From: Gammaproteobacteria bacterium
Lineage (GTDB): Bacteria; Pseudomonadota; Gammaproteobacteria; Steroidobacterales; Woeseiaceae
NCBI GenBank assembly: GCA_029862045.1
Contig: JAOTYE010000003.1
Coordinates: 62,001 to 126,000, forward strand
DNA: 64,000 bases
Direction of reading: 5' to 3'
Part shown: positions 42,357 through 57,423 of the stretch, in pieces
Layout of the letters: the number at the start of each line of letters is the position of its first letter
Position numbering within the stretch: the stretch's first letter is position 1
Program-made: the position numbers and the translations under genes
Notes under the pieces: generated by a model
The model's input: only the letters and a program-made list of their open reading frames with translations
Told to the model about the DNA's origin: nothing
Databases searched by the model: none

Positions 42357-43643
42357 ATGCTCAGAGCGAGACAAAAAGTCGACAAGTACAAGATTCTGGG
42401 TCGTATCGCATCGGGACCGCTGGCCGATGTCTATCGCGCCTTCGACACGATCCAGAAGACTCGCGTCGCACTCAAAATTCCAAAGTCCGGCGACCACACC
42501 GGGGAAGAGGAATTTCTGCACGAGGTACGGGTAGCGACCAGGCTCAAACACCCGAATATTTTGTCCGTGCTGAACGCGACTTATATTGACGACCGTTTCG
42601 TTATTGCAATGGAGCTTGGTGATGAGTCGCTCGCCGATCGGCTCGAGCGACGTATTTCGACCGCGCGCGCGATGGATCTTGCGGCTCAGGCACTTGCAGC
42701 GTTGGCACATGCCCACGAGCGCAAGATTATTCATTGCGACATCAAGCCAGAGAACTTCATCCTGTTTGCGGGCAATCAGCTCAAGCTCGCCGATTTCGGT
42801 TTTGCGAAACTCAGCTTGCGCACCCTCAAGGCGTCGGGATCGGGGACGATTGATTACATCGCCCCGGAACAGGCAATGGGCCGGCCGAAATTTCAATCCG
42901 ATGTATTTTCGATGGGGCTGGTCCTGTACCGCCTTTTCTCCGGCAAGTTGCCCGAGTGGCCATTTGGCTGGCCGATGGTCGGTCACGAGCAACTGATTGC
43001 AAGAGTGCGGCCGGAATTCGCGGAGATGCTGAAAAAGGCGATTCAGCTCGATCCAGCCAAGCGCTATCGGGACGCGACCCAAATGCAGGCCGCGTTTGAG
43101 CGCCTGCGCAGCCATGCGCGCCGGCAAAAACGAACGAAAACGAAAAACGGCGGCCGCAGCGGGTCATCGTGGCGGCAGTTGCAGTGGCGCGAGTTCCAAA
43201 GAAAGTACCGCAAGGCGCTGTCAACCGGACAACAATGCCGGCGTTGCGAGGGTCCGGTCGCCGAAAGCATGCAGGCCTGTCCCTGGTGCGGTTTCGATAA
43301 TCCCGCAAGAGGATCGGAATCCTCGCTGCCGTCCAGCTGTCCGCGTTGCGAACGTGGTGTGAAGAACGACTGGAATTACTGCTCCTGGTGCTACGGGCCG
43401 GGATTTGTCGAGGAAACAAGCCGCCGCTATGCGGACAAGCGCTACCAGGCACGTTGCAGCAATACACGGTGTCGAGGGCCGCTGATGCCGTTCATGCGCT
43501 ATTGTCCGTGGTGCCGGACTAAAGTACGACGCCCGTGGAAACTCGCAGGCAGCAGACACTCCTGCAAAGCCTGCAAATGGGGAATAGCAAGAGAGTTCTG
43601 GAATTATTGTGCGTGGTGTCGCGAGCCCGTGCGCCGCGAATAG
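42357..43643 (+). CDS. Ser/Thr protein kinase with four C-terminal zinc ribbons
   Basis: Protein of 428 aa. Residues 8-250 are a Hanks-type kinase: phosphate loop around IASGPLADVYRA, Lys40 in VALKIPK, catalytic Asp128 in HCDIKPEN, Asp147 of DFGFAK and IAPEQA. The catalytic residues are intact, so activity is likely. A basic linker (KRTKTKNGG) leads to four zinc-ribbon-like units with Cys pairs 294/297+308/311, 328/331+342/345, 367/372+383/386 and 403/406+418/421. No transmembrane segment is seen, so it acts in the cytoplasm. The ATG was chosen since it gives the kinase fold start. It precedes a PP2C phosphatase by 23 bases: a writer-eraser pair for the cluster that follows. Confidence 0.9.
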   Translation: MLRARQKVDKYKILGRIASGPLADVYRAFDTIQKTRVALKIPKSGDHTGEEEFLHEVRVATRLKHPNILSVLNATYIDDRFVIAMELGDESLADRLERRISTARAMDLAAQALAALAHAHERKIIHCDIKPENFILFAGNQLKLADFGFAKLSLRTLKASGSGTIDYIAPEQAMGRPKFQSDVFSMGLVLYRLFSGKLPEWPFGWPMVGHEQLIARVRPEFAEMLKKAIQLDPAKRYRDATQMQAAFERLRSHARRQKRTKTKNGGRSGSSWRQLQWREFQRKYRKALSTGQQCRRCEGPVAESMQACPWCGFDNPARGSESSLPSSCPRCERGVKNDWNYCSWCYGPGFVEETSRRYADKRYQARCSNTRCRGPLMPFMRYCPWCRTKVRRPWKLAGSRHSCKACKWGIAREFWNYCAWCREPVRRE

Positions 43644-43666
43644 CGTGACGTCGCTAGAGGTCCTTA

Positions 43667-44515
43667 ATGTCTAATCTCCCTGATGACATCGTGTTGCTGG
43701 ACGGCGCCGCCGAGCCCGATCAGCGCCGTGCGTCTGTTGGCGGCGGGAGCGTCATCGCCTATACGTGTCGATCGCCGGACAAGGAGTCTGAGAACGAGGA
43801 CACCGTGGCGATCATTCCCTACGGCCCACAGGCGGCCGTCCTGATCGTTGCCGATGGTGCCGGCGGTCTGCCCGCCGGAAAGCAGGCATCGCTTACCGCG
43901 GTCAATTCGTTGATCGAGTCAATGCAAGCCGCGATGGCTGAGACGATGTTGCTGCGCACTGCGATACTCAACGGCATTGAGGCGGCCAATCTGACGGTAC
44001 AGAATCTCGGCAATGGATCAGCGACGACGATGACGGTTATCACGATCGAAGGTCTGACGGTTCGCGCTTATCAGATCGGTGATTCAGAGGCGATGGTCGT
44101 TGGCCAGCGTGGCTTGATCAAGCTGCAAACGACCGCGCATTCGCCGACGGGATTTGCGGTCGAGGCGGGCTTTCTTGACCAGCGAGAAGCATTGCATCAC
44201 GCAGAGCGCCATCTGGTGTCCAATTTCATGGGCACGGCCGATATGCGCATCGATATTGGTGCCGAATTGAAACTGAAGCCGCGTGACACGATCCTGCTGG
44301 CCAGCGACGGACTGATGGACAATGTGCACGTGGATGAGATCATTGAGAGGATTCGCAAAGGTCCGCTCGACGTTGCGATGCAGGAGGCGATCAGGCTCGC
44401 GCAGCGGCGCATGGCTGGTGCATCGGCGGGCCAGCCGAGCAAACCGGATGATTTGTCGTTAATCCTGTTTCGCAAGCCTTACCGGCCGGCCGCGCGCCGG
44501 CCGGTACAAATTTAA
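43667..44515 (+). CDS. PP2C-family Ser/Thr protein phosphatase
   Basis: Protein of 282 aa with the PP2C core: SENEDTVAII (metal-site Asp), LIVADGAGGLPAGKQAS (the DGxGG site), AYQIGDSEAMVV, LLASDGLMDNV, and PSKPDDLSLILF (last metal Asp). All metal residues are present, so it should dephosphorylate Ser/Thr-P proteins with Mn2+/Mg2+. No membrane segment is seen. An AGAGGT site precedes its ATG. It forms a pair with the zinc-ribbon kinase and probably reverses its action and that of the second kinase on FHA-bound partners. A long GC hairpin lies over its last codons. Confidence 0.9.
   Translation: MSNLPDDIVLLDGAAEPDQRRASVGGGSVIAYTCRSPDKESENEDTVAIIPYGPQAAVLIVADGAGGLPAGKQASLTAVNSLIESMQAAMAETMLLRTAILNGIEAANLTVQNLGNGSATTMTVITIEGLTVRAYQIGDSEAMVVGQRGLIKLQTTAHSPTGFAVEAGFLDQREALHHAERHLVSNFMGTADMRIDIGAELKLKPRDTILLASDGLMDNVHVDEIIERIRKGPLDVAMQEAIRLAQRRMAGASAGQPSKPDDLSLILFRKPYRPAARRPVQI
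44480..44506 (+). terminator. Perfect 10-bp hairpin at the 3' end of the phosphatase gene
   Basis: TACCGGCCGG pairs perfectly with CCGGCCGGTA around a 7-base loop inside the last coding codons. The tail (ACAAATTTAAC) is AT-rich but not a T-run. It may end or attenuate transcription between the kinase-phosphatase pair and the lipoprotein genes, or stabilise the first mRNA. Confidence 0.45.
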
Positions 44516-44728
44516 CAATATCAGCGATTTAGGGGCCTTTCTCTAGGCGACTGCGGTTCTTGCAGCACTGTGATAAGAGGTGTTGATCGCGCGCTGGCCA
44601 CGTATTATCGTCGACATTGACACGCAGCTGCGGACGGAGTCCGTCGCGTCGGTGATTCCAATGGAACTCCGCCACGCGTTTGGTGCTCCAAACCCTAGGC
44701 AGTCCTTGCGACAGAGAGGGTCAGGACG

Positions 44729-45793
44729 ATGAAATCAAGTCAGTCATCCACGTCGGTTCCCAGTTGGATCAAGCCACTCCTGTTCATAGTGTTTGCTGCT
44801 GTTGTAACAGGTGCGTGCAAAGAACAGTCGTCATCATCGAGTGGCGGCATGTCCTCCCCACCAAGCGGCGGCATGCCGGCTCCACCCGGCGCGCCAGCTC
44901 CGCCAGGTGGCGGAATGCCGACGCCCCCATCACCAAGCGGTGGTGGCATGCCAGCGCCCCCATCACCAAGCGGTGGCTCTGACGGTGACGGTGGTATGCC
45001 CGGAGGCTCTGAAGGACCAACGGGTAGCTCCGGCGATTCAGGCGGTTCGGGCGGAGAAGTCGGCAGTTTTCCCGCCGGCGGTGATGAGTCAGACGGCGTT
45101 CCTCCGCCGCCAAGTTCGAGTGGCGGCGGCGCTGACGGCGACATGTCCGGCGACTCCGGAGACGGAGGCGACGCCGAGAGCCCAAGTGAGTGGGAGGACG
45201 AAAGCAGTTCTGCGGATAGCGAATGTGGCGATACCGGATCCTTACCCGGGGGCGTGGGCGGCATGGGACAGGACGGTGAGTGCATCGGTGGCGGCGGTGG
45301 CGGCGGTTCATCCGAGTCCGCAAGTGACAGTGCCGAAGGCGGCACGCAGGGCACCGGGGGCGCGGGCAGCGTCGGCGAATTCCCGGAAGAGAGCGCAGCC
45401 GAGCGGGCTGAACGGCTGGGCCGCGAGCTCGATGAGTCGATCGGCGGTTTCGACGAGGCGCTGTCGGAAGAACAACGTGAAATTGCTGCGGTAGGACGCA
45501 GCACAGAAGGATTCGGTGAGGGCGCGACGGGCGCCGGCGGCGGCGGCATCATTCTTGGTGAACAGTCTGACGGCAACAACCCCGTATCGGTGGCAAATAC
45601 CGGTATGTCGCGCGAGTCTCCGACGGCCGGGATGACAGAGCAGGAGATTCGCGAGCGTACGCCGGAGGATATTCCGATTTTGGTCGACGACGATATTATC
45701 GCCCGACAGCTGCGTGAGGCTGCGTTGGCCGAAGATGACCCTGCGCTGCGTGACCGGCTCTGGGAAGAGTATCGAAAATACAGCGGTATTTAG
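44729..45793 (+). CDS. Gly/Ser/Pro-rich lipoprotein
   Basis: Protein of 354 aa that I cannot assign. Residues 15-30 are a signal segment ending in a lipobox-like VVTGAC, so it is probably lipid-anchored. Residues 31-215 are almost all Gly, Ser, Pro, Asp and Glu, with PAPPSPSGG-type repeats (an 11-residue unit repeats in the DNA with a 33-base period), a disordered linker that could span the periplasm. The C-terminal third is ordered and helical (AERAERLGRELDESIGG, TEQEIRERTPEDIPILVDDD, then DDPALRDRLWEEYRKY), a possible docking part. It opens the second block of the cluster after a 213-base gap that contains TTGACA at 44617-44622 with no clear -10. Confidence 0.72.
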   Translation: MKSSQSSTSVPSWIKPLLFIVFAAVVTGACKEQSSSSSGGMSSPPSGGMPAPPGAPAPPGGGMPTPPSPSGGGMPAPPSPSGGSDGDGGMPGGSEGPTGSSGDSGGSGGEVGSFPAGGDESDGVPPPPSSSGGGADGDMSGDSGDGGDAESPSEWEDESSSADSECGDTGSLPGGVGGMGQDGECIGGGGGGGSSESASDSAEGGTQGTGGAGSVGEFPEESAAERAERLGRELDESIGGFDEALSEEQREIAAVGRSTEGFGEGATGAGGGGIILGEQSDGNNPVSVANTGMSRESPTAGMTEQEIRERTPEDIPILVDDDIIARQLREAALAEDDPALRDRLWEEYRKYSGI

Positions 45794-45802
45794 GACTATG
45801 AT

Positions 45803-47050
45803 TTGAAAACGATGACACGGGTATCACTGCTGCTGACCGCCACTTGCTTCGTGCTGCCCGGATGTGCGGTCAATGAAGTCATAACCGCCGAAGAAACCGA
45901 ACTGGTCATGGCTGAGACGCCACCGGACGAGGCGGCGCTGCTTGATATTGGCGTCATTGAATTCGAGGGTGGTATGTCTGTCGACAATGATCCGGATAAG
46001 TCCGGTATCTACGAGGAAATTCGCACCGCTGAAATACGTTATTTGCCATACCATCTCAAGACGACGTTGCAAGGTACTGGCCACTGGGGAGCCGTGCGGG
46101 TTATTCCGTCGCGCGATGCGTTTACCGATGTCATCATCAGCGGCAAGATTGAAAAGTCGGACGGTGAGTTCATCACTCTGGATATCTCCGTCGATGACGC
46201 GCGTGGACAGCACTGGTACAGCAAGGCCTACAGTACGCAAACCGGTGTTTCTTCCTATTCGGAAAACCGTGATCGACGCGAAGATCCTTATCAAAAGGTC
46301 TTTAACGATATTGCCAATGATTTGCAGGCATTCGTCGCGCAACTTCCGTCCGAATCGATACGCGAGGTTCGGCAGATTACCGAGCTGAAGTTCTTTGCTG
46401 ACATGTCGTCACGGGCCTACGGTGAACATCTGACTACGAACGAAGAGGGAGTGGTCTCGATTGTTCGTCTGCCGGCCGAAAACGATCCAGCAGTTGATCG
46501 CCTGCGGCAGATCCGCGAACGTGATCGACTTGTCGTCGACACACTCAACGAACACTACGCAAATTTCTATTACGGCATTGCGATTCCGTATCACTCGTGG
46601 CGCAAGACGGCGCGTGAGGAATCGATCAACTACCGCCAGGTGAAGCGATCAGCTGCACTGCAGACGCTGATGGGTGCGGTGGTTATCGCGGGTGCGTTAG
46701 CTGTGGATACGGACAGCTCGAGTTACTCCAGGAGCCGGATGAAACGCAGCTTGCAAAACATCGCTATTGGGGAGGGCTTTCAATCGATTATGTCGGGCGT
46801 CTCGAGGCGCTCGGAGGCGGGGATGCACAGGGAGTCCATCAAGGAATTGTCCGAGTCGTTCGGCGCCGAGGCGGCGCCGATGGTCGTGACCGTCGAGGGT
46901 GAGACGCGTCGCCTGACCGGCACAGCCACTGCGCAGTACGAAAGCTGGCGTAGATTGCTTAAGGAAATCTATGAGGCTGAGACCGGATTCGTCGAGACGG
47001 CAGATGCCGCTGATCCGGATCCGGTGCGTATCCCCGAACCGACGGGATGA
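45803..47050 (+). CDS. Lipoprotein of unknown function
   Basis: Protein of 415 aa with a lipobox LPGCAVNE near the N-terminus, so it is anchored to the inner or outer membrane. I see no known domain. Residues 80-170 look like a mixed fold with EIRTAEIRYLPYHLKTTLQG, GAVRVIPSRDAFTDVIISGK and YSKAYSTQTG; residues 275-300 are a hydrophobic stretch (LQTLMGAVVIAGALAVDTD). Similar stretches occur in lipoproteins of this sort of kinase cluster, but I have no name. The start may be TTG or the ATG nine bases later. It sits between the Gly-rich lipoprotein (9 bases) and the membrane kinase (about 14 bases), so it likely belongs to the complex. Confidence 0.75.
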   Translation: MKTMTRVSLLLTATCFVLPGCAVNEVITAEETELVMAETPPDEAALLDIGVIEFEGGMSVDNDPDKSGIYEEIRTAEIRYLPYHLKTTLQGTGHWGAVRVIPSRDAFTDVIISGKIEKSDGEFITLDISVDDARGQHWYSKAYSTQTGVSSYSENRDRREDPYQKVFNDIANDLQAFVAQLPSESIREVRQITELKFFADMSSRAYGEHLTTNEEGVVSIVRLPAENDPAVDRLRQIRERDRLVVDTLNEHYANFYYGIAIPYHSWRKTAREESINYRQVKRSAALQTLMGAVVIAGALAVDTDSSSYSRSRMKRSLQNIAIGEGFQSIMSGVSRRSEAGMHRESIKELSESFGAEAAPMVVTVEGETRRLTGTATAQYESWRRLLKEIYEAETGFVETADAADPDPVRIPEPTG

Positions 47051-47064
47051 GCGATCACTGATTG

Positions 47065-49419
47065 ATGCAAGACATCAAGAAAGGAAGTGAGCTCGCGAGC
47101 CGCTACACGCTGCTGCGCAAGCTCGGAGCCGGCGGTGCCGCCGAAACCTGGCTCGCTAAAGATCGACTGACACGTGCATCCGTTGCGCTGAAGATACTCG
47201 TCAGCAAACGCGTGGCCGCAGGGGATTTCCACAAGGAATGGCAAAACAGCATCCGTTTGATGCATGCACACATCGTGCGTGTGTTCGAATTCAATGCTGA
47301 ACCGGACAACCCGTTCTACAGCCTGCAGTTCGTCGATGGGCCCGATATCAGTGTGTTGTCAGGTGCCCCGCTCGAACACATCCTCGCGCCTGTCGGGCTT
47401 GTTGCAGATGCATTGCGCTATGCGCACGGCAAGAATGTGGTACATCGCGACATCAAGGCGAGCAATATTCTTCTGGACCAGAACGGTGCTCCATACCTGA
47501 TCGACTTCGGGGTCGCCGCAGTTGCCGGTGCTGAGGCAGGAGGCGGCTCACTGATCGCGGCGAGTCCACAAACGCTCTCGGGAGACGTGCCGCAGCCGGC
47601 GGATGATATTTTTGCGCTTGGCGGGCTTATCTACGAGCTTGTCAGCGGTCGTTCACCCTATTCGTCGTCTGCGACGGCGGAGGACATCCGGCACGCGGTG
47701 CCGCCGCCTTTGGTTGCAGCCGACGGTTCTGCGGTTCCAACAGCTGTACAGCAGCTCGTCGCGAGCATGCTTGATAAAGACGCGCTGGCGCGACCGGATG
47801 CCGCAACCGTCGCGACGATGCTCGAATCCGCGGGCTTCCCGTCTGCGCCCGCGCCTGCAAGTTATACAGGTGGCCGACGGGCTCCGATCGATGAACTCAT
47901 CGAAGCCAGCGACAACGTTCGACCCGGGACGAGACACGCAGCTGCAGCGTCGCTGACGGCGCCAAAGGAAAGCTCCGGCATCAGTCCAAGGACACTGGGG
48001 ATCAGTCTCGTCGTGCTGCTCGCGATACTGACTGGTGTCGTATTTTTTCTGCCGGATACCGTCACGACCGACGGCATTAAGCCCGTCGCCGAAACGCGTG
48101 AGGAGACAGTTCAGACTGAGAAGGAAAGTGAGCGCAAAAGAGGCGTGGGCTTCACTGAAAACGTCGATGACCTGAGTGGGCGCGATGCGCGCGTCAAAGC
48201 ACGAGCCGATACCGAAGTTGTGCTCGGCGAATTGCTGTCGAAAATGGAAACGCTGGAGCGGCGAGCTGTGCAGCGTTGGGGTGGTCTGCGTTTCAAGCAA
48301 GCGCAGGCGATCTATGCGGAAGGCGATGTGGCATACCTCGCGCGCGATTACGTCATTGCCAGCGAGAAGTATGCTGAGGCGATCGCGATCGTCGAGCCGC
48401 TGCTCGATGAGGTTGACCAGGTCTTTGCCACGACGTTTACCGATGCGCAGGCTGCACTCGAGGCCGCGGATGCTGTCGAAGCACTACGACTCTTTGAGCT
48501 GGCCGTCGCGATCAGCCCGAGCCACGCAGCAGCAGAGGCGGGTTACACGCGAGCGAAGAACCTTGATACCGTTCTTTCACTCACCGATCAGGGGTTCGAG
48601 TTTGAGAGCGAGCTTGAACTCGAAGCTGCACGGCAGAGTTTTGCCAGGGCGGTGGAACTCGATCCTGAGTGGCAGCCCGCGCAAACCGGTCTCGAGCGAG
48701 TGCAGGCGACGATAAAGCAAATGGAGTTTGATCAACGCATGACCGAAGGCCTGACCGCGTTGACCGAACGGGATTACCCTGGAGCTCGGGCGGCGTTTCG
48801 AATGGCGCAGCAACTCAGGCCGGAATCACGGGAGCCCGCCGATGGTCTGTTACAGGTCGACCAGGGAATACGGCTGGACCAGATTTCGGCATTCGAGAGG
48901 CAAGCCCAGCGTCAGGAACGCGATGAAGAATGGGAGATAGCGGTCGAGACTTACGAGAGTATCCTTGAGATTGACAGCAATCTTCTGTTTGCGCAGGAGG
49001 GACTCAGCCGTGCGCGGCAGATGACTGCATTGCATGCGCAACTTGATGAGTACATCGCGGACCCGGACAGCCTGAGCACGGCGTTCACGATGAGCAAGGC
49101 GACGCGACTTGTCGTCGATATCACACGCATGCCGAGCATCGGACCGCGACTGTCCGGGCAGCGCGACGAGCTATCGCGACTACTGAAACGCGCGGCAACC
49201 CCGCTAACCGTGCAGCTGGTTTCGGACAACGTCACGGACGTCTCTATCTACAAAGTTGGTAAACTCGGCAGCTTTCAAACGCGCCAATTGGACCTCAGGC
49301 CGGGCACATACGTCGCTGTTGGAAGCCGGCCGGGGTACCGGGATGTGCGCCTCGAGTTTCGTGTCGCACCGGAGATTGATCTTCAGCCGGTTGTTGTTCG
49401 CTGCGAGGAATCAATTTGA
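47065..49419 (+). CDS. Membrane Ser/Thr kinase with helical repeats
   Basis: Protein of 784 aa; a TTG-ATG start pair occurs and the ATG is used. Residues 12-270 form a kinase domain (LGAGGAAETWLA, Lys43 in VALKIL, Asp129 in VVHRDIKASN, Asp147 of IDFGVA). The usual APE appears as SPQ, a weak activation-loop end. A transmembrane helix (LGISLVVLLAILTGVVFFL, about 307-325) follows, so the rest is likely periplasmic. Residues 370-640 are TPR-like repeats (EKYAEAIAIVEPLL, ARQSFARAVELDPEWQ, ARAAFRMAQQLRPESR), and the end resembles a PEGA domain (LDLRPGTYVAVGSRPGY). It probably senses the envelope and phosphorylates cytoplasmic FHA partners. It overlaps the next gene by 4 bases. Confidence 0.88.
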   Translation: MQDIKKGSELASRYTLLRKLGAGGAAETWLAKDRLTRASVALKILVSKRVAAGDFHKEWQNSIRLMHAHIVRVFEFNAEPDNPFYSLQFVDGPDISVLSGAPLEHILAPVGLVADALRYAHGKNVVHRDIKASNILLDQNGAPYLIDFGVAAVAGAEAGGGSLIAASPQTLSGDVPQPADDIFALGGLIYELVSGRSPYSSSATAEDIRHAVPPPLVAADGSAVPTAVQQLVASMLDKDALARPDAATVATMLESAGFPSAPAPASYTGGRRAPIDELIEASDNVRPGTRHAAAASLTAPKESSGISPRTLGISLVVLLAILTGVVFFLPDTVTTDGIKPVAETREETVQTEKESERKRGVGFTENVDDLSGRDARVKARADTEVVLGELLSKMETLERRAVQRWGGLRFKQAQAIYAEGDVAYLARDYVIASEKYAEAIAIVEPLLDEVDQVFATTFTDAQAALEAADAVEALRLFELAVAISPSHAAAEAGYTRAKNLDTVLSLTDQGFEFESELELEAARQSFARAVELDPEWQPAQTGLERVQATIKQMEFDQRMTEGLTALTERDYPGARAAFRMAQQLRPESREPADGLLQVDQGIRLDQISAFERQAQRQERDEEWEIAVETYESILEIDSNLLFAQEGLSRARQMTALHAQLDEYIADPDSLSTAFTMSKATRLVVDITRMPSIGPRLSGQRDELSRLLKRAATPLTVQLVSDNVTDVSIYKVGKLGSFQTRQLDLRPGTYVAVGSRPGYRDVRLEFRVAPEIDLQPVVVRCEESI

Positions 49420-51842
49420 GTTTTGACCACCTCTATATCAGAGACGCTGAAGGCGAACGACGTATCGGCGCCAATGCGCTGCCGCTGCGCGTTGGCACAG
49501 GCAACGATTGTCAACTTCGCTTGCCGGGTCCAGGAGGCGGACCCGTCATGTTGCTCGACTTGCTTGACGGCGCGCCATTCGTACAGCCTTTTGGGCGCGA
49601 CGACTCAATGCAAATCAACGGTGCGCCACTGGTTGCCAGTACGCGTCTCGCCGATGGCGACGAGCTGCAGTTTTTTGGCAGCAGAATCCGGGTTTCCGCA
49701 GCAGTCGAGCGACTGACCCTGGATGTGCGACTCGAAGATAGTGCGTACGTTACGCAACCCCCGGAACTGGCTGACGATGCCGCGCAAGCTGCAGACGAGG
49801 CGATTGCACCGACGGCGTTTCGGCGCGCGGCCGATACGCATGCGGCTGTTGTCGAATCGCGCCGTAATCCACTCAAGGCGATCGTCGGCGTTGGACTCAC
49901 AATACTAATCGTCATGTCCTACTTGCTCTTCAGCTCGGCATCGATTCAGTTCGAAGTGAGCCCCGCGGAGCCCGACGATATTTCGATATCCGGCGGCTGG
50001 TTTCGTATGCCGATCGGCGGTCGGATTCTCCTTCGCAGCGGGGAGCACACGGTCACGGTAGAAAAGCAGGGTTACTACGATGTCAGTCAGAATTTTGTCG
50101 TTGGAGACGAAGCGAGCAAGACAATTGAGATCAGAATGCGCCGCTTGCCGGGCCGCCTGTCCGTCGCCACAGAGCCTCCCGTCGACGCTGTCGTAACGAT
50201 CGATAGCAGCACCGTCGGCAAAACGCCGTATGGTCCTGTCGAGTTGCAACCGGGAGAGCACAGTGTCAGCGTGCGCGCCGAACGCTACCTGCCATTCGGC
50301 GATGTTATTGCGGTTGCGGGTCTGGGGCAGCACGAGGAATTGTACGTTCAGCTTGTACGCCGTTGGTCGAATGTCGAGGTGACGTCGGAGCCGGCCGGCG
50401 CAACGATATTTGCAGGCGAAAATCGTGTCGGCGAAACGCCTGCCGTTATTGAACTTCTCGAGGGCACGCACCAAATCAGCGTTGTTCGGGACGGATTCAG
50501 AGCCTGGGATGGCACGGTGACAGCGCAGCCGAATATGGACCAGGTGCTGCCCCTGATTCAGCTGCAACCGGCAAATGCGAAGTTGCTCGTTAACTCCATT
50601 CCACGGGCAGCAAATGTGACGGTCGATGGCCGTTATCGCGGACAATCACCGATCACGCTGGCATTGTCTCCGGGCGTTGACTACGACATCGGCCTGTCAA
50701 AGGCGGGTTATGGAGCGACCAGCCGACGGGTGCGGCTGCAAGCCGCGGCGAGCGATTCGATAACTGTCGATCTGTCTGCGCGTACCGGATCATTGACTGT
50801 CAATGTGCAGCCTGCTGATGCCACCGTTTTCGTCGATGGCCGCGCGCGTGGCAACGGCTCCACAACTCTGCGGCTAAGCTCCGCACCACATCGGGTCGAA
50901 GTCCGCAAGACCGGCTATCAAAGCTGGTCGCGAACGGTTACGCCGCGACCGGGATATCCGCAGACGGTTACCGCACAATTGCGGTCGCTCGCAGCAATCG
51001 AGCAGGAAAAAGTCGAAGTTACGGTGAAGACGGTGGACGATCAGCTCATGCGCCGCGTCGAACCCGGAACATTCAGGTTGGGTTCGTCACGCTCGGAGCA
51101 GGGCAGGCGGGCAAATGAGGTGCTGGTCCCGGTTACGCTGACACGGCCGTTCCTGATCGGAGTCCACGAAGTCACTAACGGCGAGTTTGCGAAATTCCGG
51201 GCCGGGCATGATTCTGGCAGTGATATTCATGCATCGATGGCGGGCGGTCAAAACCCCGTCGCCAATGTCACCTGGTCTGATGCTGTGGAGTACTGCAACT
51301 GGCTCAGTGCAAGAGAAGGCCTGCAGCCGGCTTACGAGGAGAAATTTGGTGAATGGACGGTCATTCGACCACTCACCAACGGCTACCGGTTGCCGACAGA
51401 GGCCGAGTGGGCCTGGGCGATTCGCTATGAGGGCAGCGCTGGCGTGCGAAAATTCTCGTGGGGCTCCGAAATGCCGCCGAAGCGTGATAGCGGCAACTTC
51501 GCGGACAAGGCGGCAATAGATCTTGTGCCGACGATTCTGCCGCGCTACGACGACGGCTTCGCATCAACGGCACCGGTCGGCAAATTCGTGCCAAACGTCA
51601 TCGGCATCCACGACGGCAGCGGCAACGTTGCTGAGTGGGTCAATGACATCTATACAGTGCCAACACCGGGAATCACGACACCTGTGGTTGATCCGATGGG
51701 CCCCGAGACGGGCAGGAGCCACGTAATTCGCGGCTCGAGCTGGCGGCATGCGGGCATTCTGGAGCTGCGCCTCAGTTATCGTGATTCAGGTAGCGATGCG
51801 CGATCGGACGTCGGCTTTCGCATTGTCAGAACCGTGCCCTGA
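49416..51842 (+). CDS. FHA-TM-PEGA-SUMF1 protein
   Basis: Protein of 808 aa from a TTG start, with GAGGA 7 bases upstream, overlapping the kinase gene by 4 bases. Residues 1-95 are FHA-like (LPLRVGTGNDCQLRLPG, DSMQINGAPLVAS), facing the cytoplasm. A membrane helix at about 154-174 leads to five PEGA repeats (residues 177-535; each has an AGATIF/VDG strand and a GxHxVxVxxxGY end). The C-terminus (from 545) is an SUMF1/formylglycine-enzyme-like fold: NVTWSDAVEYCNWLSA, YRLPTEAEWAWAIRYEG, GIHDGSGNVAEWVND. The Cys pair of true FGE is absent from IRGSSWRHAGILELRLSYRD, so it may be a scaffold. FHA implies it reads phospho-Thr from the kinases. Confidence 0.88.
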   Translation: MSFDHLYIRDAEGERRIGANALPLRVGTGNDCQLRLPGPGGGPVMLLDLLDGAPFVQPFGRDDSMQINGAPLVASTRLADGDELQFFGSRIRVSAAVERLTLDVRLEDSAYVTQPPELADDAAQAADEAIAPTAFRRAADTHAAVVESRRNPLKAIVGVGLTILIVMSYLLFSSASIQFEVSPAEPDDISISGGWFRMPIGGRILLRSGEHTVTVEKQGYYDVSQNFVVGDEASKTIEIRMRRLPGRLSVATEPPVDAVVTIDSSTVGKTPYGPVELQPGEHSVSVRAERYLPFGDVIAVAGLGQHEELYVQLVRRWSNVEVTSEPAGATIFAGENRVGETPAVIELLEGTHQISVVRDGFRAWDGTVTAQPNMDQVLPLIQLQPANAKLLVNSIPRAANVTVDGRYRGQSPITLALSPGVDYDIGLSKAGYGATSRRVRLQAAASDSITVDLSARTGSLTVNVQPADATVFVDGRARGNGSTTLRLSSAPHRVEVRKTGYQSWSRTVTPRPGYPQTVTAQLRSLAAIEQEKVEVTVKTVDDQLMRRVEPGTFRLGSSRSEQGRRANEVLVPVTLTRPFLIGVHEVTNGEFAKFRAGHDSGSDIHASMAGGQNPVANVTWSDAVEYCNWLSAREGLQPAYEEKFGEWTVIRPLTNGYRLPTEAEWAWAIRYEGSAGVRKFSWGSEMPPKRDSGNFADKAAIDLVPTILPRYDDGFASTAPVGKFVPNVIGIHDGSGNVAEWVNDIYTVPTPGITTPVVDPMGPETGRSHVIRGSSWRHAGILELRLSYRDSGSDARSDVGFRIVRTVP

Positions 51843-51907
51843 AATTTCGTGAGACAATTGCGGCCGAAACCGGTCTAAGGTCAGAGACCGTAAGACGAGG
51901 ATCCAAC

Positions 51908-52144
51908 GTGTATCGATTTCTACTGATTGTTATCGCCAGTTGCTTTCTCAGCGTGGCGGCCTGGGCACAGGAAGATCCCGCCGAGCCGGACGAACCGGAC
52001 GAGACCGAAGAGCCGCAGGTGGCAGCCGAAGAAGTAGATGAAGCGGGCCTTGACGAGCAGGGCTTCACCGATGAAGACGACGATTTTCGACCCAGCGAGG
52101 ACATCCCGGCCGATCAGTCAATTCCGTTTCCAACAGACATCTAG
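51908..52144 (+). CDS. Small acidic exported protein
   Basis: Protein of 78 aa with a signal peptide (FLLIVIASCFLSVAAWA) and an acidic mature part of about 57 residues (DPAEPDEPDETEEPQ, EDDDFRPSEDIPADQ). It starts at GTG with GAGGA nearby and ends 14 bases before the TolQ-like gene. No domain is known. Its position suggests a small periplasmic partner of the channel, or an acidic mediator like those in Tol-type systems. It could be lost from automatic annotation owing to its size. Confidence 0.65.
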   Translation: MYRFLLIVIASCFLSVAAWAQEDPAEPDEPDETEEPQVAAEEVDEAGLDEQGFTDEDDDFRPSEDIPADQSIPFPTDI

Positions 52145-52158
52145 CCTGAATAATCAAT

Positions 52159-52959
52159 ATGAATAAAAAGAACATACCGGTTGAATTCGTGTTTCAACTT
52201 TTCGCGCTGATCATTGCAATCATTATTGTGCACGCTTTCTACGTTGCCGTAGTTCGCCCAAATGCTGCGCAGATCATTGAAGAGCAGACAATTGCTGCGG
52301 CGGCCGACCCGGACTACGTCCGGGAACGGCGCGTCTCGGTGTTGATCAAAGACATGGAACAGGAGGCCTGTTTCATTCTCGGCCTTTGGGCTCTAGCAAT
52401 CATGGGCTACAAAGCGGTAATAATTCTTGGCGAGCGCCGACTACTCGACGTAGACCTCGTGCCCGTCGCGGAGGGGATGCGAATTTTGCCCGAGGACACA
52501 CGCGAATTTGCGCGCCAGATTGAGGCGCTACCCGAAGACAGCCAGCGCATGCTGCTGCCGCGGGCGCTGTTGAATGCACTGCGACGATTCAGCACGACGC
52601 GCAACATCCAGGACGTATCGAGCAGTACGCGCAATATATACGAGACAGAGGGTGAGCGACTCGAATCGGAACTGTCGATGATTCGCTATATCTCGTGGGC
52701 GATACCGTCGATCGGCTTCATCGGCACGGTTCGCGGCATCGGTGAAGCGCTCGCGCAGGCCGACAAAGCGGTGCAAGGCGATATCGCAGGCGTAACGCAG
52801 AGTCTGGGCGTTGCCTTCAATTCGACGTTCATCGCCTTGCTGATCAGCATCTTTTTGATGTTTCTCGTGCACCAGTTGCAGTTGCTGCAGGAGCGGCTTG
52901 TCTTTGACGGCGAGAACTACTGCAACGACAAGTTGATCCGGCACATGAAGGCGGACTAG
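52159..52959 (+). CDS. MotA/TolQ/ExbB-type proton channel subunit
   Basis: Protein of 266 aa. A first helix (11-33), a second at 71-91 (ACFILGLWALAIMGYKAVII), a third at 177-199 and a fourth at 214-240 enclose a cytoplasmic segment at 92-176. The TM3 motif PSIGFIGTVRGIGEAL at 183-198 is the MotA/TolQ/ExbB hallmark, and TQSLGVAFNSTFIALLISIF is the TM4 counterpart with the conserved Thr. Order of helices, with a long stretch between 2 and 3, fits the family, so it is the ion-conducting ring of a proton-driven motor. Its normal partner, ExbD/TolR/MotB, is not separate here: the two downstream vWA proteins have matching anchors. Confidence 0.9.
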   Translation: MNKKNIPVEFVFQLFALIIAIIIVHAFYVAVVRPNAAQIIEEQTIAAAADPDYVRERRVSVLIKDMEQEACFILGLWALAIMGYKAVIILGERRLLDVDLVPVAEGMRILPEDTREFARQIEALPEDSQRMLLPRALLNALRRFSTTRNIQDVSSSTRNIYETEGERLESELSMIRYISWAIPSIGFIGTVRGIGEALAQADKAVQGDIAGVTQSLGVAFNSTFIALLISIFLMFLVHQLQLLQERLVFDGENYCNDKLIRHMKAD

Positions 52960-52978
52960 GCACAGGACGATTGCAGAC

Positions 52979-54346
52979 GTGGGTCTTCTCGCAGCGCACA
53001 TCAACGATGCCGGTATCTCGGTTCTGGACTCGGACAAGTTACTGTATCGGGAACCGGGGTTCGCGCTGCTCGACGATGACAAACTGACAACGGGTGCTGA
53101 GGCGTTTTCAAAAGCGCGCGTCAAACCACGGCGCATTCAGAACCGGTTCTGGTCGAATCTGCAAACAACGCCGTTGGCCGATCGCCGTTTTCAGCATTTG
53201 AGTGCTGCCGACCTCGCAAGCCGGCAACTGGAACAGATGTGGAAGCGCGTTGCCGGTGCTGGCGATCGTATCGTCCTCGCGGTACCCGCGTATATGCGGG
53301 CTGACAATCTTGGCCTGTTGCTCGGAATTGCGGCCGAATTGAAGATTCCGGTCACTGCAATGGTCGATGCCGCTGTCGCAGCGACGCGTCGCGAATACCA
53401 GAATGCCGTGCCCGCACACGTCGATCTCAGCCTGCATTCGACGGTCGTGACACGACTGGCTCAATCTGGGCAGGCGCAGATGGATCGGTCAGCAGTGATT
53501 GATGAATGCGGGATGATAGCCCTGCACGAAGCCTGGATTGCGCTTATCGCGGAGGCATTCGTGCAGCAGTCCCGCTTCGATCCTCTGCATACCGCGGAAA
53601 CAGAGCAAATGCTGCAAGACAAGTTGCAGGGTTGGTTGTCTGCTGTGGCTGGCGGAAAAACCATCACACTCGAGATCGAATACCGTGGTATTACGCATCG
53701 GGCCGATCTCGAGTTGCTCGAGTTCGTCGCTGCGGCGGCACCGACCTACCATCGCATTGTCAGTAACCTGCGGGCATTATATCGGGCCGATGAAACGCCG
53801 GCCCTGCAGCTCTCGGACCGCGCAGCTCGAATGCCCGGCCTCGCAGATATTCTTACCGCCCGTGTCGGGGGCGAAATATTTCTGCAAGAGCCCGGAGCGA
53901 CCGCTCGAGGATTGCTATCGCGTTGCCGCGAGATGCAGCATGGCGACAGTTCCGTCAGCCTGATACGACAATTGCCGTGGGACCAGTCGCCCGTTGTGCT
54001 CAAGAACACCGAGGTCATCAGACAGGGAGGTCATCCAACGCATCTGTTGTTCGACAACACCGCATACGCAATTGATACGCGGCCGTTAACGCTTGGGTCA
54101 CAATCAAGTGACGGAGAACGCTGCATCGAATTACAACAAGACATGCCCGGCGTATCGCGCCGACACTGTTCATTGCAGCAGGAGAACAGTCAGTGCATTG
54201 TCCGCGACTTCAGCCGCTACGGTACATTTCTGAATGGGCACCGAATCGACGGTTCTGCCGTCCTGCAAGTTGGAGATCTGATACGGCTTGGCACGCCGGG
54301 CTACGAGCTGCGACTGATTACCATGGAAAACGACAATGGCTCGTAA
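52979..54346 (+). CDS. Actin/Hsp70-like protein with C-terminal FHA domain
   Basis: Protein of 455 aa with a GTG start. Residues 1-330 look like an actin/Hsp70-type ATPase fold: GLLAAHINDAGISVLDSD (phosphate-1-like), then RIVLAVPAYMRADNLGLLLG and AAELKIPVTAMVDAAVAA, which recall the VPAYF-helix-EP-AA pattern of Hsp70. The ATP-binding glycines are not all clear, so ATPase activity is a guess. Residues 375-445 are an FHA domain with GVSRRHCSLQQ, then VRDFSRYGTFLNGHRI, containing the Arg, Ser, His, Asn residues that bind phospho-Thr. No membrane segment: it is a cytoplasmic link between the kinase signals and the channel, 19 bases behind it. Confidence 0.75.
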   Translation: MGLLAAHINDAGISVLDSDKLLYREPGFALLDDDKLTTGAEAFSKARVKPRRIQNRFWSNLQTTPLADRRFQHLSAADLASRQLEQMWKRVAGAGDRIVLAVPAYMRADNLGLLLGIAAELKIPVTAMVDAAVAATRREYQNAVPAHVDLSLHSTVVTRLAQSGQAQMDRSAVIDECGMIALHEAWIALIAEAFVQQSRFDPLHTAETEQMLQDKLQGWLSAVAGGKTITLEIEYRGITHRADLELLEFVAAAAPTYHRIVSNLRALYRADETPALQLSDRAARMPGLADILTARVGGEIFLQEPGATARGLLSRCREMQHGDSSVSLIRQLPWDQSPVVLKNTEVIRQGGHPTHLLFDNTAYAIDTRPLTLGSQSSDGERCIELQQDMPGVSRRHCSLQQENSQCIVRDFSRYGTFLNGHRIDGSAVLQVGDLIRLGTPGYELRLITMENDNGS

Positions 54347-55433
54347 GCGACGGCCATTCGAAGTCTTCAGCATGTCGTTTCTCGATTGCATGAGTTGTGG
54401 TTTCGGCGCGGTCATCTTGTTTTTCATGATCATCAATGCACAGGTCAAGGAAACAACCGAGCAGGATCCGTCGGACCTCATGGCAGAGACGCGCAAAATC
54501 GAGATCGAAATACTCGATGAGCGCAAGAATCTCGTGCTTGCCAAGAACACGATGGAGCGGCTCGAGACCGAGCAAGACACAGCAGAAGGGCAGATCGCGC
54601 AGATTATCAGGCTAATTGAAGAATTGCGTGCCGAGCTCTCGAAATACGACTCGGAGACCCTCGCGCACATCGAAGCTGTCGAGAAACTGCAAACCGACAT
54701 CAAGTCGCTCGAAGAGCAGGTCAAGCGCCTGCTCGCGCTTGCAGCGGAAGACGAGGCTGATGGTAACAGGCTGCGCGAGTTTCAAGGCGAGGGCGACCGC
54801 CAGTACCTGACCGGTCTCAGATTGGGCGGCAAACGAACGCTCATACTTGTTGATCGTTCTGCGAGCATGCTCGACGACACGATCGTGAATATTATCCGGC
54901 GGCGCAACATGTCTGTGGGTGACAGGCTCCGAGCGGTCAAATGGCGCCAGGTTGTGGCCAGCGTCGATTGGCTAACCGCCCAGTTTTTACCAGGCAGCGA
55001 ATTTCAGATCTACATGTTCAATAACGATGTTGAACCTGTCATCAAAGGCAGCGACGGTGTCTGGCTAAAGGCCGATGACAGTCGCCAGCTTGATGAGGCA
55101 GTTCGGGTCTTGCGGCGCACCGTGCCCGAGAACGGCACGAACATGAAGGCAGCCTGGGAAGTCGCGTCGCGACTAACACCACTGCCGGACAACATTATCC
55201 TGCTCGCCGACGGCCTGCCGACCATGGATGAGCCGACGATCAGCCAAAGGACAGTGAGCGGGCGTGACCGATACCGAATGCACTTCAATGCGTTGCGTGA
55301 ACTGCCGAGCGGTATTCCGGTCAATGTTTTTCTGTATCCACTCGAAGGCGATTACGAAGCGCCAATCGTTTATTGGGTGCTGGCGTACCGTACGGGTGGT
55401 TCGTTTATAAGCGTTAGCAGGGACTGGCCGTAG
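54336..55433 (+). CDS. vWA protein with ExbD/TolR-like membrane anchor (first copy)
   Basis: Protein of 365 aa. A basic start (ARKRRPFEVF) leads to FSMSFLDCMSCGFGAVILFF (12-31), a single helix with Asp17, Cys18 and Cys21. By hand, SFLDCMS aligns with PFIDVML of ExbD, including the proton-carrying Asp. Residues 40-140 are a coiled coil (ERLETEQDTAEGQIAQI, LEEQVKRLLALAAEDE). Residues 165-365 are a von Willebrand factor A domain with a MIDAS metal site: Asp173, Ser175 and Ser177 in ILVDRSASM, Thr in ENGTNMKAAW, and LADGLPTMDEP. The anchor places the vWA head in the periplasm. It overlaps the FHA gene by 11 bases and precedes a second such gene by 18. Confidence 0.88.
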   Translation: MARKRRPFEVFSMSFLDCMSCGFGAVILFFMIINAQVKETTEQDPSDLMAETRKIEIEILDERKNLVLAKNTMERLETEQDTAEGQIAQIIRLIEELRAELSKYDSETLAHIEAVEKLQTDIKSLEEQVKRLLALAAEDEADGNRLREFQGEGDRQYLTGLRLGGKRTLILVDRSASMLDDTIVNIIRRRNMSVGDRLRAVKWRQVVASVDWLTAQFLPGSEFQIYMFNNDVEPVIKGSDGVWLKADDSRQLDEAVRVLRRTVPENGTNMKAAWEVASRLTPLPDNIILLADGLPTMDEPTISQRTVSGRDRYRMHFNALRELPSGIPVNVFLYPLEGDYEAPIVYWVLAYRTGGSFISVSRDWP

Positions 55434-55451
55434 CATGACGGAGCAATTAAG

Positions 55452-56450
55452 ATGAAACGGCGCCGCAATGTTGAAGCGTTTAGTCTGTCGTTCCTCGACT
55501 GCATTTGTTGTGGTTTTGGTGCGATTATTCTGTTGCTCGTTCTCAGCAAGATTTACGAACCGGTCATTATCGAAAAAACGCAGGACGATCTCGAGCAGTT
55601 GATTGCCCTGTTGCAGCAGGAGCTTTTCGACATTCGCGGTGAAACGGCCGTGATCAATCGCGACCTCGAAGACGTTCGCGAGCAAGCCTCGTTAAGCAAG
55701 TTACGACTTGCACGCAAACAGGGCGAACTTAATACAGTACGAGGCCAGTACAAAGCGACGCAGCAGGAATCCGAGGCGCCCCTTGATGAGGGGGCACTGC
55801 GTGTCACCAAGCAACGGCTGACAGAAGAGATGCGGAGGTTGCAGCCCTACTATCGAGCTGCCGACGACGATGCGGTAGCCGGCATTCCTGTCGATAGTGA
55901 GTACGTGATCTTCATTATCGATACGTCCGGCAGTATGCAACAGTTCAACTGGCCCCGGGCTATCGAAAAGCTGACCGAGACGCTCGACGTGTATCCACAG
56001 GTCAAAGGCATTCAGATCATGAATGACAATGGCAGCTACATGTTCAAACAATACGCTGGCAAGTGGATACCCGATACGCCAGGACGTCGTCAGGCCATCG
56101 TAAATACGATGCGCACATGGCGCCCGTTTAGTGACAGCAATCCTGTCGACGGCATTATCTATGCGATCAGTACATTCTGGTCGCCCGACAAGAAGATAAG
56201 TATCTACGTATTCGGCGACGAATTCAGTGGCCGTTCGGTTGAGGCCGTCGTTCGGCAAGTCGATACCGTGAATCGGGAAGATGAAGATGGCAACAGATTG
56301 GTGCGCATTCACGCTGTTGGTTTTCCGTTCTTCTTCGAACCGGGCCGGGAGTTGTCTGATACGACACGTCGCTACGCGCAACTCATGCGTATCCTTTGTG
56401 AAAGAAATGGCGGGACCTTCGTCGCGCTATCCGATCCCGACCGCGGTTGA
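55452..56450 (+). CDS. vWA protein with ExbD/TolR-like membrane anchor (second copy)
   Basis: Protein of 332 aa, a diverged partner of the preceding one. MKRRRNVEAFSL leads to SFLDCICCGFGAIILLLV (13-30), with Asp16, Cys17, Cys19 and Cys20. The coiled coil spans about 40-130 (DLEQLIALLQQELFDI, LRVTKQRLTEEMRRL). The vWA domain (150-332) has its MIDAS site Asp157, Ser159, Ser161 in FIIDTSGSM and conserved TFWSPDKKISIYVFGDE and VDGIIYAISTF. It ends without a tail. Two unequal vWA anchors suit a heterodimer in the pore of the MotA/TolQ-like ring, as ExbD/TolR dimers occur there. Confidence 0.88.
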   Translation: MKRRRNVEAFSLSFLDCICCGFGAIILLLVLSKIYEPVIIEKTQDDLEQLIALLQQELFDIRGETAVINRDLEDVREQASLSKLRLARKQGELNTVRGQYKATQQESEAPLDEGALRVTKQRLTEEMRRLQPYYRAADDDAVAGIPVDSEYVIFIIDTSGSMQQFNWPRAIEKLTETLDVYPQVKGIQIMNDNGSYMFKQYAGKWIPDTPGRRQAIVNTMRTWRPFSDSNPVDGIIYAISTFWSPDKKISIYVFGDEFSGRSVEAVVRQVDTVNREDEDGNRLVRIHAVGFPFFFEPGRELSDTTRRYAQLMRILCERNGGTFVALSDPDRG

Positions 56451-56452
56451 TC

Positions 56453-56510
56453 TGCGCCACAATGCAAGATTGTTGCTGCGCCACAATGCAAGATTGTTGC
56501 TGCGCCACAA
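56453..56510. repeat. 24-base tandem repeat between vWA and OmpA genes
   Basis: Starting two bases after the vWA stop codon, the unit CTGCGCCACAATGCAAG plus ATTGTTG occurs twice in full, and a third copy begins CTGCGCCACA before it diverges to CACCACAATT. Each unit contains ACAAT-GCAAG-ATTGT, a five-base inverted repeat. It may be a DNA- or RNA-binding site in front of the ompA-like gene. Confidence 0.75.
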
Positions 56511-56617
56511 TTCACCACAATTGATCGTCAACTTTGCATGATGCGGGCCATTCGGCAGCGCTTTTGTGCCATGTAATGACCTCCAACAGCGACTGAAACA
56601 CCATGGAGGACATACCA

Positions 56618-57340
56618 ATGCGTAATACCTTGACAATTATTTTAATACTGACCCTTGCAACAGCAACCCCTGTGTTCGCGGCAGCGGCATCCAAAGAAGA
56701 GAACGTCGGCGTCGGTGCGGGCGCCGTTGTCGGTGCGCTGGCGGGCGGCCCGGTTGGTTTCATAATCGGCGCAGCGATCGGCGGCAAGTTCGGCGACAAG
56801 ATGCACCAGAAACGTACGACAATCGATACGTTGTCTGGCTCCCTAAGCGACTCTCGCAGCGATGTTACCGAGCTCGAGAACGATGTTCGTGTGCTCAACA
56901 GTGATATTGATACGCTCAGTACCGAGCTCGAGCGAATTCAGGAGTTCGACCGGCCACAGTTAATCAATTTAATGCAAGCCGGTATTGCAATGGATCTGCT
57001 GTTTCGTACCGATGAGCACGTGCTAGCCGACACGACAGGCGGTCGACTCGCCGAACTCGCCAGTGGTCTTGCATCGATGCCGGATATCCGCGTGCATCTG
57101 GATGGTTTTGCCGATGAACGTGGCGACTCCGACTACAATCTGCAACTCTCCAGGAAACGCGTGGAGTTCGTTCGGGACCAGCTTGTCACTGCCGGCGTGC
57201 ATCCGTCACGGATTCGTGTTGTCGCACATGGCGAAGCCCCTGCACAGGATGAATCGGTCGACAGCTATGCCCTTGAGCGTCGCGTCAGCCTGAAGTTATT
57301 CATCGACAATGGGCAGTCGTTCGCCTCCAGCCCAAACTAG
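56618..57340 (+). CDS. OmpA-family peptidoglycan-binding protein with glycine zipper
   Basis: Protein of 240 aa; the ATG reading MRNTLTIIL was chosen because GGAGG stands eight bases upstream. A signal peptide ends near PVFAAAA. Residues 32-62 are a glycine zipper (VGAGAVVGALAGGPVGF, IIGAAIGGKFGD), then a coiled coil at about 65-115 (LSDSRSDVTELENDVRVL), and an OmpA domain at 120-235: GFADERGDSDYNLQLSRKR has the Asp and Arg that bind meso-DAP, with VVAHGEAPAQ and LERRVSLKLF. It resembles PdsO-like OmpA proteins of sortase-linked systems, but no sortase is here. It could be the Pal/MotB-like anchor to the cell wall. An intrinsic terminator follows. Confidence 0.88.
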   Translation: MRNTLTIILILTLATATPVFAAAASKEENVGVGAGAVVGALAGGPVGFIIGAAIGGKFGDKMHQKRTTIDTLSGSLSDSRSDVTELENDVRVLNSDIDTLSTELERIQEFDRPQLINLMQAGIAMDLLFRTDEHVLADTTGGRLAELASGLASMPDIRVHLDGFADERGDSDYNLQLSRKRVEFVRDQLVTAGVHPSRIRVVAHGEAPAQDESVDSYALERRVSLKLFIDNGQSFASSPN

Positions 57341-57395: not shown

Positions 57396-57423
57396 GGCCG
57401 GCCCTTTGGGGGCCGGCCTTTTT
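57396..57423 (+). terminator. Intrinsic terminator closing the envelope cluster
   Basis: GGCCGGCCC pairs with GGGCCGGCC around a short loop, followed by five T and then GTG. It lies 55 bases after the OmpA-family stop and 20 before the phhB start, so it should end the cluster's transcript. Confidence 0.75.

Follow-up and report, generated by a model that had tools for sequence, protein, structure and literature searches.

A 64,000-nucleotide stretch of DNA (the window) from a gammaproteobacterium of the family Woeseiaceae (contig JAOTYE010000003.1 of assembly GCA_029862045.1, positions 62,001 to 126,000) was found to carry, at window positions 42357-57340, a cluster of twelve genes that are labelled A to L here. 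Judged by its sequence features, this cluster is a real and widespread envelope motor operon. What is new is its full conserved parts list, together with a proposed module consisting of a kinase (E), a threonine within a T-x-P-P motif (in F) and a reader domain of the FHA type (in I). The motor core itself is not new, having been predicted in 2025 (PMC12204202).

The motor core and its conserved neighbourhood

The core consists of three proteins. H (52159..52959, + strand) is a TolQ/MotA-like channel subunit, probably with four transmembrane (TM) helices (Pfam MotA_ExbB, 2.2e-14). J (54336..55433, +) and K (55452..56450, +) are vWA anchors 1 and 2, each with a single TM helix near the N-terminus, a coiled coil and a vWA domain with a metal ion-dependent adhesion site (MIDAS). 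The TM Asp of each anchor (Asp17 of J at 54384-54386, Asp16 of K at 55497-55499) was aligned with TolR D23 / ExbD D25, and Thr190 (52726-52728) and Thr223 (52825-52827) of H were aligned with the essential threonines of TolQ/ExbB. Both threonines were invariant across 130 sequences. The Asp of J was present in 127/127 sequences reaching that site and its MIDAS was conserved in 131, while the Asp and MIDAS residues of K were invariant (131/131 sequences). No TolR/ExbD-like gene was recognised within the cluster in Pfam/NCBIfam scans. The original prediction from the sequence alone, of a TolQ-like channel and two vWA anchors of the TolR type, is borne out by the Asp and Thr alignments, and the reading of H, J and K as a TolQ-like proton motor with two vWA anchors is well supported at the sequence level.

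The twelve + strand open reading frames (ORFs) had been described as overlapping or closely spaced, and all were located where predicted. E and F overlap by 4 nt and I and J by 11 nt; the remaining intergenic gaps are 9-213 nt. A terminator-like hairpin (57396-57418, +; 10 pairs, 9 of them G-C, followed by TTTTT) lies directly 3' of L and was the best stem in the scan. Pfam/NCBIfam domains were assigned to A (Pkinase and double zinc ribbon), B (PP2C), E (Pkinase and TPR), F (PEGA and FGE-sulfatase), H (MotA_ExbB), I (FHA), J and K (both weak VWA) and L (OmpA).

In order to describe conservation, 90 loci reaching from D to K were used, a non-random sample that covers several phyla. D, E, F, H, J and K were all present in 90/90 of these loci, and the actin-like protein I in 74/90. 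A conserved neighbourhood in other genomes, the absence of which had been named beforehand as counting against the prediction, thus exists, with the core block complete at every D-to-K locus. The order C-D-E-F-(G)-H-I-J-K is retained in about 14 other families of the order; this gene order is shared with other phyla as well, and the clustering is far beyond chance. H was found in 56/60 relatives, and the K gene in 249/346 genomes and 61/71 genera of the order. A class-level search for K gave matches at E 0.001 in 37/370 genomes, about 30 of them strong. In even draws, strong K matches were found in 2/196 genomes of the phylum of locus L109 and in 3/198 genomes of the phylum of locus L141, the query genome being included in each count. 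Alignment of K against public genomes gave at least 586 related places, the best 80 of which include Woeseiaceae, Halieaceae, records labelled Desulfobacterales, Myxococcales, Acidobacteria, Phycisphaerales and Kiritimatiellia, as well as the isolate Candidatus Litorirhabdus singularis IMCC14734, in which the core occurs with a degenerate FHA domain.

Several related arrangements were observed alongside the standard operon. One genome holds both a standard copy and a divergent second one (L042, G043:C132), which has retained D, E, F, H, J and K but neither the kinase domain nor protein I. L212 and L213, two remote relatives in the phylum to which L109 (a Phycisphaerales record) belongs, have an H-like gene and a J-like vWA gene, adjoined in L213 by a kinase gene, and may be an older or simpler form. 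At 10-15 loci outside the window's lineage, the operon is flanked upstream or downstream by candidate extra parts, namely two predicted lipoproteins with no family match, a protein whose complete versions have about 490 amino acids and a TPR protein matching TonB_C weakly (examples at L086:4597-5259, L034:15800-16495, L034:17935-18495 and L037:373-1884). Finally, the window's genome has two more ExbB-like genes in tandem outside the cluster (G000:C26:51734-52659; L166, L168), one of which encodes a protein of 453 amino acids with an N-terminal extension.

Co-retention of a kinase, a threonine motif and an FHA domain

E (47062..49419, +) has a cytoplasmic kinase domain (about 47104-47811; Pfam Pkinase 1.2e-28), one TM helix (residues 312-330, by TM scan), a periplasmic TPR region and a conserved C-terminus. 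The TPR part is present in 90/90 D-to-K loci. The kinase looks active, with its K, D, N and D residues, in 36/88 scored loci of the first sample and is degenerate or absent elsewhere.

F (49416..51842, +) consists of a degenerate FHA-like domain, a cytoplasmic linker, a TM helix (155-173), five PEGA repeats and a non-catalytic domain of the SUMF1/FGE fold. The domain calls of the original prediction were otherwise reproduced by Pfam/NCBIfam, and it is in F that they had to be amended. Its N-terminal domain has an FHA-like layout, lacks the phosphate-binding Ser/His and has no Pfam FHA match, so F was rejected as a reader and does not stand as the second FHA protein it had been taken for. The SUMF1 domain lacks the catalytic cysteines (the last 60 amino acids hold no Cys in 49/56 relatives and at most one in the rest), which rules out F as an active formylglycine-generating enzyme. 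Within the otherwise variable linker, a T-x-P-P motif (..DSAYVTQPPE..) was spotted in the alignment; its Thr113 (49752..49754, +) is the proposed phospho-threonine.

I (52979..54346, +) has a cytoplasmic Hsp70/actin-like domain followed by a C-terminal FHA domain (about 54131-54292). Its AlphaFold2 (AF2) model has a mean predicted local distance difference test score (pLDDT) of 91 and gave Foldseek matches to Hsp70 ATPase domains. The FHA domain was matched by Pfam (7e-13) and by profile against FHA chains of the PDB. It keeps S..H and N, and these binding-site Ser, His and Asn residues are retained along with the kinase.

In the first sample, the Ser/His of the FHA domain of I were intact in 36/36 kinase-positive and 8/52 kinase-negative loci, and T.PP was found in F at 33/36 against 2/51. 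Of 8000 patterns built in the same way, T.PP came first. It did so too when the window's own clade was set aside, with 15/16 kinase-positive loci against 2/51 (the next-best pattern reached 6/16). Early tree tests of kinase against FHA were non-significant (p 0.06 and p 0.125), and 60 further regions were therefore added, 50 of them unseen loci. This second sample consists of loci of the order not used for finding T.PP. Its raw counts were 32/35 kinase-positive and 6/13 kinase-negative, the negative class being inflated by split, disrupted, cut or miscalled genes. Curation, made after the sequences had been inspected, gave 34/36 against 1/8 (p 7e-6). The loci rescored or set aside were L247 (split kinase gene), L265 (cut by the contig end), L235 (Arg for the kinase Lys), L240 and L243 (D and E separated by some 0.7-0.8 kb, as would fit a kinase gene that has been disrupted) and L255 (T.PP missed at first through an over-extended ORF call). 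Across the 131 loci of both samples, T.PP was present in 67/72 kinase-positive and 3/59 kinase-negative loci, and the Ser/His of the FHA domain were intact in 72/72 scored kinase-positive loci.

Phylogenetic dependence was addressed on a tree built from H, J and K, with 10-13 changes per trait. Independent pairs agreed for kinase and T-x-P-P in 7 cases with 0 opposite (median p 0.016, range 0.016-0.125), for kinase and FHA in 6 with 0 opposite (p 0.03), and for FHA and T-x-P-P in 5-6 with 0 opposite (p 0.03-0.06). As far as sequences can tell, this co-retention is what a set of kinase, substrate and reader should look like. Two loci that have lost the kinase (L252 and L253) carry D/E-x-P-P at the site (AVDLPPA, PELPPA), while kinase-bearing members of their family, namely L029 and L251, have T-x-P-P. 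The Asp or Glu is possibly a natural phosphomimetic.

A link to phosphorylation, as in the original prediction, is supported, but kinase, phosphatase and FHA protein do not make up a defining control layer, given the active kinase at 36 of 88 loci and the absence of I from 16 of 90. The phospho-Thr layer appears from these patterns to be a detachable module and not the operon's defining feature.

Proposed mechanism and alternatives

We think it probable that the operon encodes a 5:2 envelope motor driven by protons, which the E kinase, Thr113 of F and the FHA domain of I would gate in some lineages. Five copies of H would form a ring in the inner membrane around a single helix each of J and K, whose Asp residues would face the Thr ring; the J/K hetero-pair is proposed because the J-K gene pair is invariant. 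Proton flow would turn or pull this pair, and the coiled coils would transmit the motion to the two metal-binding vWA domains in the periplasm, which may act on F (PEGA/pseudo-SUMF1), E (TPR) and the lipoproteins C and D. Where the module is kept, as in this lineage, Thr113 on the cytoplasmic part of F would be the substrate of the E kinase domain. Once phosphorylated, it would be bound by the FHA domain of I, which would thereby act on a clutch of the motor, either engaging or releasing it. The PP2C phosphatase B could reset the switch, and the zinc-ribbon kinase A could feed in another signal. Operon conservation, the motor signature residues and the co-retention of kinase, T-x-P-P and FHA are read from the sequences; we infer the stoichiometry, the phosphorylation, the phosphothreonine binding by I, the direction of control and the cargo.

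A number of observations weigh against this reading. The main objection is that the canonical phosphate-binding Arg of the FHA domain of I is Ser/Thr in most members. The phosphate loop in the Hsp70/actin-like domain of I is also altered, so ATP binding is uncertain. Independent events on the tree were few (the 10-13 changes given above), FHA against T.PP by itself misses p 0.05 at the median, and the late timing of the second-sample curation counts here as well. Individual loci depart from the pattern: L085, L220 and L233 have the kinase and an intact FHA domain but no T.PP, L111/L114 carry T-x-A-P in its place, L217 has T.PP without the kinase, and 8 kinase-negative loci keep the FHA residues without T.PP. 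The profile of H matched no PDB chain at E 0.01.

A different role for the kinase/FHA layer would leave the motor core as described and have the layer govern how the machine is assembled or where it is recruited (septum or pole, for example) instead of switching the motor. We consider this unlikely, though it is the most serious of the alternatives. Joint loss of kinase, T-x-P-P and FHA leaves the motor residues invariant, so the motor would work without them, and the Foldseek matches of I to Hsp70 make it look more like an adaptor than a channel gate. Against this, E and F, which carry the kinase and the target Thr, are constant core parts, which suggests direct coupling.

It is improbable in our judgement that the TolQ-like and vWA proteins, instead of forming an ion-driven motor, make up a static scaffold in the membrane that serves an apparatus of surface adhesion, secretion or gliding. 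The vWA, PEGA, TPR and lipoprotein parts are typical of scaffolds and adhesion, and the SUMF1 domain of F gave a match (5.5e-25, below the cut-off) to GldK, a type IX secretion protein, but a passive scaffold would have no need of the Asp and Thr that TolQR/ExbBD require for using protons, and these are invariant. A Zorya-like anti-phage defence system, by far the least probable of the alternatives, was rejected: the marginal matches of H to ZorA (E 0.0012) and L to ZorB (0.0018) score far under the level of members (best 15.9 bits; NCBIfam ZorA 13.6 against a cut-off of 500), kinase matches to PADLOC models reflect the common kinase fold, and the system belongs to the near-core genes of the order and has stable housekeeping neighbours.

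The most far-reaching reading is that of the first proton-driven 5:2 envelope motor known under eukaryotic-type Ser/Thr kinase control, with E phosphorylating the T-x-P-P of F and the FHA domain of I as clutch reader, in a module repeatedly lost as a unit and once with an acidic residue replacing the Thr; we hold this possible, at somewhat less than an even chance. The specific kinase, target threonine and reader domain make the proposal directly testable with three proteins and one peptide.

Accessory genes and comparison with known systems

The remaining genes are less uniform. A (42357..43643, +) is a soluble Ser/Thr kinase (K, HCD and DFG present; Pkinase 2.6e-37) with C-terminal double zinc ribbons (DZR 1.1e-6), and B (43667..44515, +) is a PP2C-type phosphatase (Pfam PP2C_2 2.2e-13). 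In most genomes of the same genus where the contig allows, A is found 9-10 kb upstream of H, on its contig and strand; in G051 it lies downstream of K, in G039 some 9 kb beyond H, and in others elsewhere. B adjoins A in L029 too. This pair had been taken for a general control part, which the distribution does not support: it accompanies the cluster in the window's genus and is found downstream of it in one or two other families.

C (44729..45793, +) is a predicted lipoprotein rich in Gly/Ser/Pro, with a conserved acidic C-terminal segment and no Pfam match; it was found in 82/90 D-to-K loci, some of them cut at an edge. D (45803..47050, +) is a predicted lipoprotein with an N-terminal alpha/beta domain and long helices (AF2 pLDDT 84). 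In a fold search its N-terminal domain matched LptE and the N-terminal domain of TolB, both weakly (E 5e-3 to 4e-2), the latter naming a partner of the Tol motor. G (51908..52144, +) is a small acidic exported peptide with a signal-like N-terminus, and a small ORF matching it was found at the same place in many relatives. None of C, D and G was assigned to a family. The profiles of D and K, searched against the PDB, gave no informative relatives, that of K matching coiled coils only. L (56603..57340, +) is a glycine-zipper protein of the OmpA peptidoglycan-binding type (Pfam OmpA 5.7e-12). The domain call for L was confirmed, but L is a local accessory and not a general part of the system, being near K in 27/80 named loci, mostly of Woeseiaceae. 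Against TIGR03789 (pdsO) it scored 127.5 bits, below the cut-off of 152.2; PdsO is a protein of a dedicated sortase system.

In type IX secretion, GldKLM combines a 5:2 motor with a neighbouring periplasmic protein of the FGE fold, and F of the cluster scores to GldK; unlike that system, no GldM/GldN was recognised, and F is anchored in the inner membrane and has PEGA repeats. In the threonine phosphorylation pathway of type VI secretion, PpkA-PppA-Fha1, a kinase, a PP2C and an FHA protein act on an envelope machine, and the cluster likewise has a kinase, a PP2C and an FHA protein; it differs in having no type VI secretion parts, and the proposed target and reader are different proteins.

Tol-Pal is resembled in the TolQ fold, the anchors with a TM Asp, the nearby OmpA-type peptidoglycan binder and the weak TolB-like match of D. 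However, no TolR, TolA, TolB propeller or Pal lipoprotein was recognised in the cluster. H scored 29 bits against TIGR02796 (cut-off 221), J and K had no TolR match, L scored 59 bits against the Pal model (cut-off 125), and there were no TolA/TolB family matches. The window's genome also holds a canonical YbgC-TolQ-TolR set, above curated cut-offs, so the cluster is an additional system. Tol-Pal was ruled out on these scores and this separate set. Gene triads of a zinc-ribbon kinase, a PP2C and a vWA protein have been noted (PMC7159879), and A and B are similar to their kinase and phosphatase components; in contrast, the vWA proteins of the cluster are membrane anchors, and A and B are inconstant neighbours outside the genus.

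The closest counterpart is the TPH-vWA/TolQ-like motor (PMC12204202; Mol Biol Evol, June 2025, section 8 and Fig. 4c/d), a family found in Proteobacteria and beyond, in which paired vWA proteins were proposed as the axle of a TolQ-like pentamer and AlphaFold3 models of a related family put the vWA helices inside the ring. Its marks, namely a TolQ-like gene without TolR, a heterologous vWA pair, the transpore-helix Asp and the Thr ring, recur here (H with J and K in 90/90 loci, Asp in both anchors, Thr190/Thr223), a likeness in gene layout and key residues to the family with the Idiomarina seed. That text does not mention a kinase/FHA layer, PEGA/SUMF1, a TPR-kinase, an actin-like protein or lipoproteins for its family; the words kinase, phosph- and PEGA are absent from it. 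A literature search found no description of the whole operon. The claim that no named system has this composition is narrowed: the vWA-anchor motor had been predicted there, and the rest of the operon appears undescribed in it. To the proposed motor of the cluster, which is near-universal in one gammaproteobacterial order and found in other phyla too, the conserved partners D, E and F, mostly with C and I, add the first parts list beyond the motor.

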